Both the position numbers and the translations under genes were made by a program. A stretch of DNA of 64,000 nucleotides, taken from assembly GCF_900108065.1 (NCBI RefSeq), contig NZ_FNVQ01000001.1:1116001-1180000 (forward strand), in the 5' to 3' direction. Below, piece after piece: positions 5,078 to 50,273 of the stretch (position 1 is the first letter of the stretch; each line of letters starts with the position of its first letter). Under the pieces are notes generated by a model that saw only the letters and a program-made list of their open reading frames with translations, did no database searches and was not told the DNA's origin. The DNA comes from Marinobacterium lutimaris. Its GTDB lineage: Bacteria > Pseudomonadota > Gammaproteobacteria > Pseudomonadales > Balneatricaceae.

Positions 5078-5713
5078 TTAGATCGGGGCGCGAGGAACCA
5101 GCCCCGATTGAAACGCGAGATGGACAAGTTCGGCCGTGGATTTGATACCCAGCTTCTGCTTCAGCAGCGCCGTGTGGTTAGCCACGGTTTTCGCGCTGAT
5201 ATTCAGCTGAGCGGCGATCTCCCGGCTGTTAAGGCCCCGTGCCATCATGGTGAATACCTCTAGCTCGCGCTGGGTCATGCCTCGCAGGCGGCGATCTCCG
5301 CCCTCCTGACCGAACGCGATGCGCGTTGCTAACTCATGCTCCACATAGGGTTTGCCTTTCAGGGTCGCTCTGACTGCATCGATCAATACCTGAGGCGCGC
5401 TGCTTTTGGTGATATAACCGGTCACACCGATCTGCAGCACCTGATTCACCATGGCGGTGTCATCGTACATGGAGAATGCCAGTATCCTTGCCGAAGGCTG
5501 TCGCTCCAGGATCAGCCGCGCCACCTCTAATCCGCTGATATCGGGAAGATGGATATCAAGAATGGTGAGATCCGGCTCCTCCTGTTGCCAGTGTCGAAAC
5601 GCCTCGCGACCCGACTCGGCCTGAATCATGTCGACGCCGGGCAGAACAGCCTCCAGCAGCGCTACATACCCGTGCCTCACTACGGCGTGATCATCACAGA
5701 TGAGGATTTTCAT
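5078..5713 (-). CDS. LuxR/NarL-type response regulator of the alcohol oxidation locus
   Basis: A 211-residue two-component regulator. The receiver domain (about 1-120) shows the acidic pair 'DDH', the phospho-acceptor Asp in 'LTILDIHLPD' and the Lys in 'YITKSS'. The C-terminal LuxR helix-turn-helix reads 'LTMMARGLNSREIAAQLNISAKTVANH' in spirit. Start ATG 5713 is chosen because it overlaps the stop of the upstream kinase gene by 4 bp (ATGA), which indicates translational coupling. Position and domain make-up match PedR2 or ExaE, which control quinoprotein dehydrogenases in Pseudomonas; which of them it equals is not certain. It converges on the pentapeptide-repeat gene. Confidence 0.9.
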   Translation of the reverse strand: MKILICDDHAVVRHGYVALLEAVLPGVDMIQAESGREAFRHWQQEEPDLTILDIHLPDISGLEVARLILERQPSARILAFSMYDDTAMVNQVLQIGVTGYITKSSAPQVLIDAVRATLKGKPYVEHELATRIAFGQEGGDRRLRGMTQRELEVFTMMARGLNSREIAAQLNISAKTVANHTALLKQKLGIKSTAELVHLAFQSGLVPRAPI

Positions 5714-7011
5714 GCGCTTAAGTTCTCCTGTCGTTGACTCTGAAGCTGGCTCTGAACCTGGCCATCGCAAGGTAGATCGATCACCAGACTCAACCCTTTA
5801 TCCAGGGTCGACTCCAGGCTGACCGCTCCTCCGAGCGCACGCGCCCGTTGATGAATAGACCTCAGGCCGATGCCAAACCGGGTCCCTGGCGCCAGCCCGG
5901 AGCCATTATCGACAACCGCCAAACTTAGCCGTTTGCGCGATGCGTTCAGACTGACAGTGACTCTGTTGGCGCCGGAATGACGTGCGCAGTTGGTCAGCGC
6001 CTCTTGGGTCATCCGATAAATATGCGTTGCAGAATCGATACTTAGCGTAGGAAGTTCATCATCAACACTAAGCACGCAGAGGATTGAGGTGTTCTCCTGC
6101 CAGCGTTGTACCAGTGACTTGAGAGCGTCACTCAAGCCCAATTCGGTCAGCACCACCGGATGCAGGGAGTTGATCAGTTGTCTAAAGCCTGCGTGTATTT
6201 CACTGCAGTCCCGCTGAATTCGGCGCGCCGCTTCAAGCGTCTTCTGAGGGTCTGCGCAACAGACCTCGATAAGCGCGGCGGTGGCCTGAACGCCGGTGAT
6301 GTACTGGCCAAGATTATCGTGCAGCTCACGGGCGAGTTCGGCACGCTCCTCCTCCTGCAACTGCATCAGCGCATCGGTCAAACGCTGATTATCTGCCTGT
6401 TCTGCTTCCAGCTCACTCCCGATCCGTTCAAAGTGATCAGCCAAACGTTTTACCTCCGGCTCATCATACTGAGCCAGCTTAAGGCCGATACCCTGCTTTG
6501 TTCCCCTCTCCACTGATCGGACCAGACTGCGCAGCTGTGACTGGGCTCGTTTAAGCGCAAGCATCAGGACCAGAAGCGTCACTGCACAGGCAATAGAGAA
6601 AAGAGCGACCAGTTGAACGATAGAATCCCAGACCTCGGCGATCTCATCGCGGCTGTTAGGCAGCAGACGCACCTCGCTACCATCGGCGGTACGCACGCGA
6701 CGCTCCGGCAAAGGCTCGGCATGGAATCCGATCAGATCGATAAACCAGGCGGGCGTATCCGCTTGTGTGCTGCCAACCGGTGGCCGGCCGCCCTGTGGCA
6801 GGATATCTACGTGCCGAGGCGCCAGCCCACTCAAGTCAGCGATGCGCTTTTGAGTCAGTGGCAGTCCATCCAGCATCAATGCGGTTTGCGATAGCGCGGA
6901 CTCCACCTCTCTGACCACATCGGTGCGGGCCTGATAAGAGATGGTGACGACAGAGAGCAGCGTCACGGCCAGATAGACCGCGACGACAATCAGAACCAGA
7001 CGGAAACGCAT
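5710..7011 (-). CDS. Membrane sensor histidine kinase (NarX/DegS-like)
   Basis: A 433-residue kinase partner of the regulator that follows. An N-terminal transmembrane segment (about 5-25) is followed by a periplasmic sensing region of roughly 100 residues, a second membrane segment ('LVALFSIACAVTLLVLMLAL'), then a HisKA_3 dimerisation domain with the phosphorylated His in 'ELARELHDNLGQ'. The C-terminal HATPase has 'VVDNGSGL' and 'GIGLRSIHQRA'. ATG 7011 lies 4 bp after the stop of the upstream cupredoxin-like gene, and the 3' end overlaps the regulator start, so the three form one operon. The organisation resembles PedS2/PedR2 of P. putida, which respond to metal availability (inference). Confidence 0.9.
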   Translation of the reverse strand: MRFRLVLIVVAVYLAVTLLSVVTISYQARTDVVREVESALSQTALMLDGLPLTQKRIADLSGLAPRHVDILPQGGRPPVGSTQADTPAWFIDLIGFHAEPLPERRVRTADGSEVRLLPNSRDEIAEVWDSIVQLVALFSIACAVTLLVLMLALKRAQSQLRSLVRSVERGTKQGIGLKLAQYDEPEVKRLADHFERIGSELEAEQADNQRLTDALMQLQEEERAELARELHDNLGQYITGVQATAALIEVCCADPQKTLEAARRIQRDCSEIHAGFRQLINSLHPVVLTELGLSDALKSLVQRWQENTSILCVLSVDDELPTLSIDSATHIYRMTQEALTNCARHSGANRVTVSLNASRKRLSLAVVDNGSGLAPGTRFGIGLRSIHQRARALGGAVSLESTLDKGLSLVIDLPCDGQVQSQLQSQRQENLSA

Positions 7012-46624: not shown

Positions 46625-47692
46625 ATGACCGATAAACGCGTAGAAGACCTAAATGTAGAATCCACAACCGCCCTCGTCACCCCTGACGAGCTGAAGAAGA
46701 AGCTGGCAATCAGCGATGCCGCAGCACAGACGGTTATGGAAGGACGCCAGGTGATCCGCGACATTCTGGATCACAAGGACAAACGTCTGCTGGTTGTAGT
46801 TGGCCCCTGCTCCATTCACGATCCGGAAGCAGCACTGGAATATGGCCGCAAGCTCAAAGCCCTGGCCGATGAGCTTAAAGACAACCTCTATCTGGTCATG
46901 CGTGTTTATTTTGAAAAGCCCCGTACCACTGTGGGCTGGAAAGGCCTGATCAACGATCCGCACATGAACGACTCTTTCGATATCGAAGAGGGTCTGCATA
47001 TTGCGCGTAAACTGCTGATCGACCTGTCCGAAATGGGCCTGCCGCTGGCCACCGAAGCGCTGGATCCGATCTCCCCACAGTACATCCAGGATCTGATCAG
47101 CTGGTCGGCTATCGGCGCGCGTACAACCGAGTCCCAGACTCACCGTGAAATGTCTTCAGGCCTTTCCTGCGCCGTTGGCTTCAAGAACGGCACCGATGGC
47201 AGCCTGGACGTGGCGGTTAACGCCATGAAGTCGGTCAGCCACTCCCACAACTTCCTTGGTCTGAACAACGAAGGCCAGGTAGCGATCATCCGCACCCGCG
47301 GCAATGCTTACGGCCACGTCGTGCTGCGTGGCGGCAACGGCAAGCCGAACTACGACTCTGTCAGCGTCAAGCTGTGTGAGCAGGCACTGGATAAAGCCGG
47401 CCAGAGCAAAAACATCATGATCGACTGCAGCCACGCCAACTCCAACAAGGATCCGGCAATTCAGCCGCTGGTTGCGGAAGATGCGGCCAGCCAGATTCTC
47501 GAAGGCAACCGCTCCATCATCGGCCTGATGATCGAGAGCAACCTTGGATGGGGCGCCCAGTCCATCCCGGAACGCCTGGAAGAGCTGAAATACGGTGTTT
47601 CCGTGACCGATGCCTGCATCGACTGGAAGACCACTGAAGCCTCTCTGCGTGACCTGTCCGCCAAACTGGCCGACGCGCTGAAGAAACGCTAA
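46625..47692 (+). CDS. DAHP synthase, class I (AroF/G/H type)
   Basis: A 355-residue aldolase making 3-deoxy-D-arabino-heptulosonate-7-phosphate, the first step to aromatic amino acids. Motifs: 'VVVGPCSIHDPEAALEY', 'RVYFEKPRTTVGWKGLINDP', 'IGARTTESQTHREMSSGLSCAVGFKNGTDGSL' and 'MIDCSHANSNKD' with the metal-binding Cys/His. It has its own terminator at 47707-47729. Which of the feedback-regulated isoforms (Tyr-, Phe- or Trp-sensitive) it matches cannot be told by eye. Confidence 0.96.
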   Translation: MTDKRVEDLNVESTTALVTPDELKKKLAISDAAAQTVMEGRQVIRDILDHKDKRLLVVVGPCSIHDPEAALEYGRKLKALADELKDNLYLVMRVYFEKPRTTVGWKGLINDPHMNDSFDIEEGLHIARKLLIDLSEMGLPLATEALDPISPQYIQDLISWSAIGARTTESQTHREMSSGLSCAVGFKNGTDGSLDVAVNAMKSVSHSHNFLGLNNEGQVAIIRTRGNAYGHVVLRGGNGKPNYDSVSVKLCEQALDKAGQSKNIMIDCSHANSNKDPAIQPLVAEDAASQILEGNRSIIGLMIESNLGWGAQSIPERLEELKYGVSVTDACIDWKTTEASLRDLSAKLADALKKR

Positions 47693-47706
47693 GCCGCTTC
47701 CAACCC

Positions 47707-47729
47707 GGGAGGAGTTTCTCACTCCTCCC
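47707..47729 (+). terminator. Intrinsic terminator of the DAHP synthase gene
   Basis: A perfect 9-bp stem GGGAGGAGT/ACTCCTCCC (loop TTCTC) followed by TTATCTTT, 15 bp after the stop codon. Confidence 0.8.
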
Positions 47730-47765
47730 TTATCTTTCGCTGTCTCCTTTCTCCCCGAGGCATCT

Positions 47766-48656
47766 ATGCAAATGGATCCTGCTCGCAATCACGGGTTGGC
47801 GCTGGCCATCACCGGTGTATTTATTCTCAGTTTTGACGCCCTGCTTATCCGTCTTGCCAATGCCGGCGGTCTTGACGTCTCATTCTGGCGCGGAGCCTTC
47901 GTGCTGATCACCACCGGCATCATCTGCTGGTTCCGTCGCCGTCATATGAGCTGGCCGGATACGCGCAGGCTCTGGCTGATGGCCTTTGCCATATCGCTGC
48001 TTTACGGCGCCAATTCGGTACTCTTTGTGCTCTCGGTGACGCACACGCATGTGGCCAATACCGTGGTGATACTGGCCAGCGCGCCACTTTTCGCGGCCGC
48101 CATCTCCTGGCTGTTTTTCCGTGAGACCACGCCAAAACGCACCCTGATATCGATAGTCTGCGCGATCTTCGGCGTGCTCGTGGTGTTTTCAGCATCGATT
48201 GGACAGCCAGGTCAGCTTGGCGACTTCCTCGCTCTGATCCTCGCCGTGGGCATGGCAACGATGCTGACCCTGCTCAGACGTGCACCCAGCCTGCCCCGCC
48301 TGCCGCTGCTGGCATCGGCAGGTCTTGTCACCCTGCTGATCAGCGCGCCCTTTGCAGCGCCATTCGAACTCAGCTCCACAAGCCTGGGCTGGCTCGCACT
48401 GATGGGGCTGGTGCAGATCCCGATCGCGTCACTGCTTATTTTCAGTGCCAGCCGTCACCTGCCGTCACCGGAAGTAAGTCTTGTTTTACTCATCGAAACG
48501 GTAATGGGGCCAGTTTGGGTCTGGTGGGTTCTTAACGAACAGCTGCCATCGCGCACACTGCTCGGAGGCGCACTAATTCTGGGGGCTATCGCGGTGAATT
48601 CAATTTTGTCGCTGCGCAGCTACCGAGCGGGAAAGTCTCGCAGGAAAGGATGTTGA
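47766..48656 (+). CDS. EamA/DMT-family exporter
   Basis: A 296-residue integral membrane protein with about ten hydrophobic segments as two EamA repeats, for example 'LALAITGVFILSFDALLIRLANAGG', 'AFAISLLYGANSVLFVLSVTHTHVANTVVILASAPLFAAAISWLFFRE' and 'QIPIASLLIFSASRHLPSPEVSLVLLIETVMGPVWVWWVLNEQ'. Drug/metabolite transporters of this class export amino acids or other metabolites; the cargo is unknown. It lies 37 bp behind the DAHP synthase terminator and before the candidate small RNA. Confidence 0.9.
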   Translation: MQMDPARNHGLALAITGVFILSFDALLIRLANAGGLDVSFWRGAFVLITTGIICWFRRRHMSWPDTRRLWLMAFAISLLYGANSVLFVLSVTHTHVANTVVILASAPLFAAAISWLFFRETTPKRTLISIVCAIFGVLVVFSASIGQPGQLGDFLALILAVGMATMLTLLRRAPSLPRLPLLASAGLVTLLISAPFAAPFELSSTSLGWLALMGLVQIPIASLLIFSASRHLPSPEVSLVLLIETVMGPVWVWWVLNEQLPSRTLLGGALILGAIAVNSILSLRSYRAGKSRRKGC

Positions 48657-48705
48657 GCCCAAAAACAGTTGAGATAAATTCAACAAAAGTCAAATTAACC
48701 ATCAT

Positions 48706-48734
48706 TTGTCGAAAAGCAACTTAGACTTTAGCAT
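48706..48734 (+). promoter_or_regulatory. Sigma70-type promoter for the 48.74-kb small RNA candidate
   Basis: TTGTCG at 48706-48711 and TAGCAT at 48729-48734 with exactly 17 bp between them (4/6 and 4/6 matches to consensus). It predicts transcription start at about 48741, directly before the RNA's stem. Confidence 0.5.
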
Positions 48735-48740
48735 TACAAG

Positions 48741-48830
48741 TGTTCGGAAGGGGGTGTGCATCCTGTCGTTGTTGTTGGGGTACACGCGCTGATGCAAGGA
48801 TTCATACTCCACACACCCTTCCGGTTTTTT
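48741..48830 (+). ncRNA. Candidate small RNA with terminal stem and T-run
   Basis: An interval of about 90 nt with a promoter 7 bp ahead and a terminator at its end. The stem CGGAAGGG/CCCTTCCG plus GTGTG/CACAC (48745-48758 with 48810-48823, one mismatch) is closed by a 51-nt loop, then TTTTTT. Inside the loop GCATC/GATGC (48758-48762 with 48791-48795) or ATCCT/AGGAT (48760-48764 with 48797-48801) can form. No reading frame of note. I do not recognise an Rfam family. A second, separate terminator follows at 48867-48886. Confidence 0.45.
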
Positions 48831-48866
48831 GCTTTTCCTTGCGTTATCTCTAGTTAGTTATCGTAC

Positions 48867-48894
48867 GCCGCACCTTGTAGTGCGGCATTTTTTT
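48867..48894 (+). terminator. Second plus-strand intrinsic terminator
   Basis: A 7-bp stem GCCGCAC/GTGCGGC (48867-48873 with 48880-48886) and ATTTTTTT. Being 37 bp past the first terminator and facing the convergent cyclase gene, it may back up the small RNA terminator or end another short transcript. Confidence 0.8.
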
Positions 48895-48917
48895 GCCTGC
48901 CATTTAGGCCGACAGAC

Positions 48918-50273
48918 TCAGCGTGACCGGCTCACTTTCTTCGCCGTGTACATGCGGTCATCCGCCACTCGAATCAGTTCATCGAGCCCCTGGGCATCGG
49001 CTGGAAAAACCGCATACCCTACCGCCGCCGATATATTGACCTCTACGCCTCTGTAAACCATCGGCTCCTGCAGCGCCTCCTGAAGCTTGCCAATCACGTT
49101 CTGGGCATCCGCCGGCTTACCAACCCCCGCTTGCAGCAGCATAAACTCGTCACCACCGGTCCGCGCCACTGTGTCCGATCCCCTGATCACAGCAGACAGG
49201 CGCTGACCCACCGTTTTAAGCAGTGCATCCCCCGCAAGATGCCCGTAACGGTCATTCACAGGCTTGAATTCATTCAGGTCTATAAAATAGAGCGTAAAAT
49301 TGAGCCCTGTACGATCATGCAGCGCGATCAGCTGGTTTACACGCTCCAGCATCAGACGTCGGTTCGGCAAGCCGGTCAGCGCATCGTGCATCGCCTCTCC
49401 GTGGCTGTTGTGATACAGCCGCACCAGAGCGATCAACAGAGAGACAAGCACAGCGAGAATGCCGTAGGCCAGCACACGCACTAGTCCGGTATTCATCCAG
49501 ACCGGGCTCGCATTTTCAGCAGGTACGGCACCAACCACCCAGTTACCATTGGGGAATTCAATGCTCATCTGAACCAGGGGGGCATCAAATACTGCAGGAT
49601 CACCGTAGAAGACCTCACCCTCAGCTCCTTTGCCATCCTTACCCCTGATCGCAATCTGATAACCATTAATAACCCTGTCCAGACCCGCTGACTTAAACAG
49701 CGCATCTGAGTCGATCACCACCGAGGCAAGCCCCCAATATTGATCCGTACCGGTGACAATGGCATCGCTGTATATCGGAGTCCGGGCTATCAACCCGTTG
49801 CCACCCTGAATCAGAGTCAGAGGCCCGGCCAGGACCATTTTACGCGCATCGATCGCCGCACTGACAGCGGGCCACTGCTGCTCATTTTTTTCGTAATCGA
49901 GACCTATCGCAGCTTCATTACCTTCCAGGGGGTACATGAACAGCAGCACATTATCTGGGGCGAGCCCTATGTTGCGTACGTATTGGCTGTTACCCACGAT
50001 CTCTCGGGCCAGCGCTTTCCATTGAGGCGGTTCGATTTCAGGATGGATTGTCACGTAACTGATCAGGCCGTGACTAAGGAAGAGGACGGAATTTATCTCG
50101 CTTTCAATACGCGCGCGGAGCTGGGCGATGGTACCCAGCGCTTCTATGCGCAGTACCTGGTAGGTTCTATCGGAGACCATCCGCTGCACGGACTCCGTGA
50201 TCGCTACCCCGGCACCGACGACCGCGATGATGGCCATATATGGCAAGAAGCGTCGGAGGCGCGTTATTAACAA
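48918..50273 (-). CDS. CHASE-domain GGDEF diguanylate cyclase
   Basis: A 451-residue membrane enzyme. Two hydrophobic helices (about 10-30 and 280-305) enclose a periplasmic CHASE domain ('ARIESEINSVLFLSHGLISYVTIHPEIEPPQWKALAREIV' and the 'RNIGLAPDNVLLFMYPLEGNEAAIGLDYEKN' core). The C-terminal GGDEF domain has the active site 'RTGGDEF' and, five residues ahead, an RxxD product-inhibition I-site ('RGSD'). It should make c-di-GMP under feedback control. The likely start is TTG 50273 (AGGGG just ahead); ATG at codon 13 is the alternative. Confidence 0.93.
   Translation of the reverse strand: MLITRLRRFLPYMAIIAVVGAGVAITESVQRMVSDRTYQVLRIEALGTIAQLRARIESEINSVLFLSHGLISYVTIHPEIEPPQWKALAREIVGNSQYVRNIGLAPDNVLLFMYPLEGNEAAIGLDYEKNEQQWPAVSAAIDARKMVLAGPLTLIQGGNGLIARTPIYSDAIVTGTDQYWGLASVVIDSDALFKSAGLDRVINGYQIAIRGKDGKGAEGEVFYGDPAVFDAPLVQMSIEFPNGNWVVGAVPAENASPVWMNTGLVRVLAYGILAVLVSLLIALVRLYHNSHGEAMHDALTGLPNRRLMLERVNQLIALHDRTGLNFTLYFIDLNEFKPVNDRYGHLAGDALLKTVGQRLSAVIRGSDTVARTGGDEFMLLQAGVGKPADAQNVIGKLQEALQEPMVYRGVEVNISAAVGYAVFPADAQGLDELIRVADDRMYTAKKVSRSR

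Follow-up and report, generated by a model that had tools for sequence, protein, structure and literature searches.

Within the window, by which we mean the whole 64,000-nt stretch of Marinobacterium lutimaris DNA analyzed here, a short intergenic locus follows an EamA gene that ends at 48656 and faces a convergent GGDEF gene (48918-50273, minus strand). The open reading frames of the window and a comparison of neighbors confirm the placement given in an earlier sequence-only reading, which had put a candidate small RNA between the EamA gene and a convergent c-di-GMP cyclase gene. Read from the sequence, the putative promoter consists of TTGTCG (48706-48711) and TAGCAT (48729-48734) with a 17-bp spacer. 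It had been called near-ideally spaced, which the 17 bp bear out; the letters fit less well, 8 of the 12 agreeing with the sigma-70 consensus by our own count. For this reason a generic sigma-70 scan with a threshold of 9/12 missed it, calling zero promoters in 47500-49800. This intergenic promoter, whose activity is predicted from sequence, is conserved in all eight genomes of the genus that we compared. The start of the proposed transcript was placed from the position of the -10 hexamer (Table 1).

Table 1. Features of the proposed small RNA locus and related genes (positions are those of the window)
Feature	Position	Strand	Evidence and remarks
Box A, T-N11-A-type palindrome TGARWWWWWYTCA, centered near -64	48670-48682		8/8 genomes; 60 sites vs 12 for the reversed control
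Box B, TCRTTTG, separated from box A by 19 bases; overlaps the -35	48702-48708	+	8/8 genomes; 10/104 oriented other sites at >=5/7 letters
Predicted promoter, TTGTCG-17-TAGCAT	48706-48734	+	Sequence and conservation; variant in G001 has TTGTGC in place of TTGTCG
Proposed sRNA, ~154 nt	48740-48893	+	Conservation, covariation, match to model R1 (G000:C18:1164740-1164893)
Basal stem enclosing the apical region	48745-48823 (arms 48745-48758 and 48810-48823)	+	Two-sided change in 7/13 pairs
Near-invariant G/U-rich apical segment, candidate seed 1	48759-48782	+	0-1 mismatch in 8/8 genomes; 94-98% identity at 48765-48784
T6, possible early terminator (short form ~90 nt)	48825-48830	+	T run of 4 to 8 in 8 genomes
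Conserved, mostly unpaired pyrimidine-rich linker, candidate seed 2	48831-48863	+	4 extra bases in own copy and G003
Predicted main terminator, hairpin GCCGCAC...GTGCGGC (stem 48867-48886) and T7	48867-48893	+	Terminator scan; T >=7 in 8/8 genomes
Small-protein genes (55-110 aa) with predicted two-box promoter	L218, L221, L223, L227, L235, L240, L246, L251, L254, L261		

A DNA search of 57 genomes returned strong matches to the locus only in eight Marinobacterium genomes, including the window's own (E = 5.5e-74 to 3.2e-9); the remaining matches, which bring the total to 39 of the 57 at E <= 1, are short stretches with E of 0.027 or worse. The locus is single-copy in each of the eight. The same convergent GGDEF gene adjoins it in every case, EamA lies upstream in seven, and the direct neighbor in G004 is aroF. 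Promoter, stem, and loop are all kept across the genus genomes. Because promoter, loop, and locus are conserved in all eight and the basal stem co-varies, we consider this more than a chance occurrence, and the earlier proposal, a new small RNA that has a promoter of its own and a long-range stem, is supported by this conservation, by covariation, and by the lack of an Rfam match.

The strong stem of the sequence-only reading is present, with both arms in place and a predicted fold of -33.7 kcal/mol for a 95-nt stretch (z = -2.1, with 4 of 200 shuffles equally good), an energy that is suggestive but not decisive on its own. Covariation says more. In an alignment of the eight genomes fitted to the model, 9 of 35 pairs over the whole structure change on both sides, distributed as 7 of 13 in the basal stem, 2 of 8 in the second terminator, and 0 of 14 in helix 2, which holds the apical segment. 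The two-sided changes occupy 16 cells against a shuffled mean of 5.7, a count that none of 500 shuffles reached, and a MAFFT alignment gave identical covariation counts; further pair types did not exceed the shuffles (238/500). Paired cells make up 93.9%, compared with 35-55% after a shift of the partner by one to three columns, a control that flatters the structure because the structure was derived from these same sequences. The sample is small, consisting of eight genomes of which the window's own and G003 are nearly identical at the locus. Co-variation of the stem arms had been named beforehand as the test by which the proposal could be refuted, and the arms do co-vary, in 7 of the 13 basal pairs under both alignments. 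As judged from these alignments, the basal stem is conserved by co-variation.

A short peptide could in principle be the conserved product, with the RNA fold secondary. The best shared frame (HPVVVVGV...) offers one point in favor, namely that three differences in the apical segment (in G002, G001, and G004) fall by eye at third positions of the frame, but such placement of three changes may be chance. Reading frames vary among the eight genomes; the GTG start of the best shared frame is lost in two of them (G007 and G004), its length ranges from 13 to 33 or more aa, and indels in the stem arms shift the frame upstream. We regard a peptide as extremely unlikely, and no frame is conserved across the eight genomes, in line with the earlier remark that there is no good one. 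The predicted product, by comparison of these sequences, is an RNA without a conserved frame.

Where this RNA ends is the point on which we depart from the sequence-only reading, which had it close at T6 after about 90 nt. The second terminator is the one reported near the locus by the terminator scan, and its T tail is at least T7 in all eight genomes, whereas the first run of T has anything from 4 to 8 letters (T4 in G004, T6-T8 in the other seven). With G003 left out, the mean pairwise identity of the remaining seven genomes, taken per 20 bases, is 0.94 at 48765-48784 and 0.97 at 48825-48844, rising to 0.98 and 1.0 without G004 as well, compared with about 0.45-0.8 in the flanking genes and 0.26-0.29 in the spacer at 48625-48664. 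The block 48825-48844, which starts at T6, is thus the most conserved 20-base block of the alignment. Identity drops to 0.74-0.78 in the following block, 48845-48864, because the window's own copy and G003 carry four extra bases there; within it, TTATCTC and TAGTTA are invariant. The linker is predicted to be mostly unpaired. Since the conserved block starts at T6 and leads to a hairpin followed by at least T7 in every genome, and since the first T run ranges from 4 to 8, we place the main end at about 48893. T6 is therefore probably not the main 3′ end, and the RNA would measure about 154 nt (48740-48893), with a short form ending at T6 possible. That the 90-nt form is instead the whole RNA, with the conserved stretch beyond it a separate element or a back-up terminator region, we hold to be unlikely. 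T6 does lie directly 3′ of a strong stem in the window, and seven of the eight genomes have T6-T8 at this point. Against this, only T4 is present in G004, a stem that encloses about 50 nt is slow to act as a terminator, and the stretch from 48825 combines the strongest conservation with a downstream terminator of at least T7 in all genomes. Hfq-type sRNAs are expected to have a U tail of about 7 or more; here the intrinsic terminator supplies one in 8/8 genomes, and the locus joins a conserved unpaired segment to a co-varying stem.

The same conservation bears on a possible action in cis, in which the transcript would be 3′-to-3′ antisense to the convergent GGDEF mRNA and would tune that c-di-GMP enzyme. 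The GGDEF gene is adjacent in all eight genomes, and its transcript may run through the locus, because the hairpin on the minus strand lacks a T tract (by eye). An antisense RNA, however, pairs with an overlapping transcript whatever its letters, and here loop and linker are near-invariant; the gene order can also be put down to descent. Cis action thus seems very unlikely to us, and we return to an RNA that acts in trans.

Searches beyond the eight genomes suggest that the family is restricted to the genus. An exact linker pattern matched seven stretches among 84,980 species genomes, all in Marinobacterium and with no other match; these are the same genomes as G001-G007 and so not independent evidence, and the window's own record is perhaps absent from that set. 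In 293 genomes of the order, the same pattern found only the window's own copy. Covariance model R1, built from the eight genomes, recovered those eight among 116 family genomes together with two matches at E = 0.03-0.04, and in 390 order genomes it found two Marinobacterium and, in the 388 others, four weak matches at 23-26 bits; stricter filters were used in both searches. We judged the four weak order matches to be chance, because an E of 0.05 per genome would give more than this by chance. Two weak matches in the 108 other family genomes were likewise judged chance, one (L087) antisense within an ORF read by eye as PRPP synthase and the other (L088) in front of an apparent katG (by eye). 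An unfiltered model search of these two loci and of the aroF loci of 15 other genera yielded 19 matches up to E 10, the best at an aroF locus having E = 0.064. One pattern match, in G102, falls in a region read by eye as coding. Phage and plasmid collections gave zero matches; viral contigs gave zero linker matches and two loop-pattern matches. G012, which belongs to another genus, has aroF and a GGDEF relative in convergent order with some 95 bases and no RNA between them (L090:2566-2660), apparently an empty site that lacks both EamA and the sRNA. Around aroF in 14 further genera, the stretch examined holds no GGDEF relative, which leaves G012 as the sole empty site seen.

Known RNA families gave a similar picture. 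At the gathering threshold, Rfam reported only an FMN riboswitch in the whole window (RF00050, 17907-18081, minus strand, 106 bits). Relaxing to E 10 at the locus brought up Yfr1 (1.2) and GP20-a (9.6), both far below gathering, and in four relatives at E 1 there were Leu_leader (0.1, over part of the G001 sRNA) and two others elsewhere, all below gathering. Rfam thus holds no match worth keeping here, in keeping with the earlier statement that no family was recognizable. From these sequence comparisons, which give it good support, the locus very probably represents a real sRNA family that is new and ordinary in kind.

Upstream of the promoter lies a two-box element, which was out of reach of the sequence-only reading and links the RNA to small-protein genes. 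Box A, TGARWWWWWYTCA, ends 23 bases before the -35 in all eight genomes, and at the sRNA locus TCRTTTG (box B) follows it at exactly 19 bases, again in 8/8. A search for box A in the eight genomes returned 60 sites against 12 for the reversed control; 8 of these are the sRNA locus, and we examined the other 52. Most of the 52 are without box B, and several lie inside ORFs. When these loci were read as 104 oriented sites, with the sRNA locus left out of the count, offset 19 had box B (TCGTTTG, with at least 5 of 7 letters) in 10 cases, including 5 exact ones. Across the other offsets between 5 and 44 there were 0-3 such matches and no exact one, with the exception of offset 17, which gave 4 and 3. 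In the 64-kb window, the sRNA site alone scores at least 18/20 for the two boxes, its own palindromic reverse aside.

Each of the 10 offset-19 sites is followed by a small ORF (ORFs and starts were called from sequence, not from annotations), 63 aa long in five genomes, 78 aa in two, and 55, 100, and 110 aa in one apiece. Most of these sites have a promoter-like pair at about the same distance as at the sRNA locus. The 100-aa protein matches DUF1127 above the Pfam cut-off, and the 110-aa protein matches it only at E = 0.15. Two of the 63-aa proteins were scanned, along with the 55-aa one, and matched NCBIfam RSP_7527 below the cut-off (E = 1.3e-4, 1.9e-4, and 0.003); a family scan of the 78-aa protein gave none worth naming. 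By their predicted promoters, the sRNA and the small-protein genes belong to one shared two-box class, hinting at one small control circuit.

Among the remaining box A matches, a GTGAAAATATTTCAC-type palindrome precedes an apparent rlmL gene (by eye) in seven genomes (L220, L225, L234, L241, L252, L257, L265); at L241 the gene divergent from the rlmL-like gene is rmf (NCBIfam). Being without box B at 19, this palindrome is probably another element. In three genomes (L243, L259, L263), a box A that likewise has no box B stands some 218 bases before a gene that looks by eye like an acetyl-CoA acetyltransferase.

Promoters controlled by LysR-type activators carry a T-N11-A palindrome near -65, and box A is centered at 48676 relative to a predicted start at 48740. 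This fit, a T-N11-A palindrome at about -64, is why we propose a LysR-type activator; published work also gives T-N11-A as the LysR-type palindrome (PMC5002191). The three exact offset-17 sites, with TCGTTTG at 17 bases from box A, were seen in G002, G005, and G006 (L247, L255, L266), each in the gap that separates a LysR gene from a divergent class-III aminotransferase gene, so that a LysR gene beside box A is seen in 3/8 genomes. Of this gene pair, scanned in G005 only (L255), the LysR protein had the GcvA model as its best match, below cut-off. A search reaching 20 kb from the small-protein site in the genome of the window, and of the opening 20 kb of the G001 contig, did not turn up this LysR gene. 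GcvA itself was considered as the regulator and is unsupported; the GcvA-like LysR gene is a candidate regulator.

Target searches covered both candidate seeds. Complements of the loop (AACAACAACGACAGGA, up to 2 mismatches) numbered 49 in the eight genomes against 44 for the control, thus showing no enrichment, and 8 of the 49 are the locus itself. A further loop complement, TACCCCAACAACAA, was rarer than its control (240 versus 373), and the linker complement CGCAAGGAAAAGCA was commoner (at least 328 versus at least 249). The linker-complement pattern CAAGGAAAA-N(0,15)-ATG gave 77 sites versus 15; of these we read 30 loci, and those that recur are Lys-Glu-Lys-Met codons inside genes whose products we take to be EF-Ts and a ribosome hibernation factor. 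For the 10 small-protein genes, pairing of the leader with the RNA does not exceed that of shuffles, except in one at z = -2.6. We also scanned the start regions of 51 window ORFs for duplexes with two RNA segments, using mononucleotide shuffles. The best result (z = -4.4) was an interrupted pairing with a gene read by eye as FIST; the fourth was a response-regulator-like gene (by eye; 5078-5770, minus strand) with an 11-base exact loop match over part of the Shine-Dalgarno. This match is kept in G003, and because 0.55 such matches are expected in the window we retain it only as a lead; no orthologue of the gene was found in the fetched stretches of G001 and G007.

That these searches found no conserved target would agree with another role, in which the conserved parts of the transcript bind a protein, titrating it, and not mRNAs. 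A repeated protein-binding motif, such as multiple loop GGA, was not seen by eye, and the searches were limited in reach. We rate titration as very improbable and prefer mRNA pairing.

Taken together, we think it likely that the locus encodes a genus-restricted, trans-acting sRNA, activated along with small-protein genes by a LysR-type protein, repressing mRNAs through two seeds, and ending at the second hairpin. In the model that we infer, which extends to transcription, the identity and sign of the regulator, Hfq, seed action, and targets, an activator, most likely of LysR type, would bind box A, centered at about -64, and contact box B beside the weak -35, switching on the RNA and, along with it, several small-protein genes bearing the same two boxes. 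The transcript would begin near 48740, fold into the co-varying hairpin that presents the near-invariant G/U-rich segment, run through the conserved unpaired pyrimidine-rich linker, and end at the second hairpin with its T7; a shorter form may end at T6. Seed 1 (G/U-rich) and seed 2 (the CUUUUCCUU-containing linker) would repress target mRNAs by pairing with their ribosome-binding regions, with Hfq probably at the U tail. We searched the literature, mostly without subscription papers, on small RNAs of Marinobacterium, on sRNA and Hfq in Oceanospirillales, and on DUF1127, LysR, sRNA, and GcvA; the RNA is undescribed among the matches listed. The locus would thus add to Marinobacterium an sRNA family with covariation support and a testable operator, with no earlier one in the part of the literature searched.

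Several described systems resemble parts of this arrangement. MetR sites, given as TGAAnnTnnTTCA and ATGAAAATTTTTCAT (PMC5002191), have the same TGA-N7-TCA geometry with an A/T center as box A. The left half of box A, however, is mostly TGAG, and here one palindrome is combined with TCRTTTG instead of two TGAAnnTnnTTCA palindromes. No methionine genes were recognized by eye among the listed ORFs flanking box A sites, a minority of which were also scanned; MetR was considered as the regulator and is unsupported, a second TGAAnnTnnTTCA palindrome being absent. UdsC of Rhodobacter sphaeroides derives from the 3′ UTR of RSP_7527 (PMC9779115), and so also links an sRNA with a small protein of the RSP_7527 family, weakly matched here; it comes from an mRNA 3′ UTR, whereas the Marinobacterium RNA has its own predicted promoter at a separate place.

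The closest likeness in wiring is to AbcR/VrsA of the VtlR/LsrB regulon, where one LysR regulator drives an sRNA and, in Brucella, DUF1127 proteins (PMC7486931, PMC12595884). VtlR of Brucella is described as controlling AbcR2 and three DUF1127 proteins (PMC12595884); the VtlR box has the form GCAT-N3-TG-N3-T (PMC7486931), and LsrB is reported to occur solely in Rhizobiales (PMC11975290). In Marinobacterium, boxes are shared between an sRNA and small-protein genes, and the two-box sites precede one DUF1127 protein above cut-off, one far below, and RSP_7527-like ones below cut-off. The RNA here has no Rfam match, and VtlR as the regulator was considered and is not supported: its box is missing from the sRNA promoter, and the window has 11 matches against 10.6 expected, none of them between 48265 and 59862. 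Tentatively, and leaning somewhat against it as a whole, we suggest that a single LysR-type regulator, perhaps GcvA-like, acts at a new two-box operator (TGARWWWWWYTCA-N17/19-TCRTTTG) to activate a new two-seed sRNA and DUF1127/RSP_7527-like small proteins, so that the Rhizobiales type of wiring would have evolved independently in Marinobacterium. If the RNA and the small proteins do answer to one regulator, they would be joint outputs of one signal, and the sRNA/DUF1127 pairing known from the VtlR papers would be recurrent, which bears on the function of these small proteins.

In build, the RNA recalls GcvB of enterobacteria, which has a LysR-type activator, a conserved G/T-rich domain, and two Rho-independent terminators in succession (PMC3658540); despite the two terminators of E. 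coli GcvB, Northern blotting is reported to have shown no short transcript (PMC3658540). The G/U-rich conserved segment and the two terminators are shared, and dependence on an activator is likewise predicted here. The differences are that the Marinobacterium RNA would be about 154 nt long, compared with 206 for GcvB, that the Rfam GcvB model is unmatched (at the locus to E 10 and in four relatives to E 1), and that the gene is not divergent from gcvA, its neighbors being EamA or aroF and GGDEF. Most likely, then, this is an activator-controlled trans-acting sRNA of a small-protein regulon, GcvB-like in its build and VtlR/LsrB-like in its wiring, and by the tests made a member of neither.
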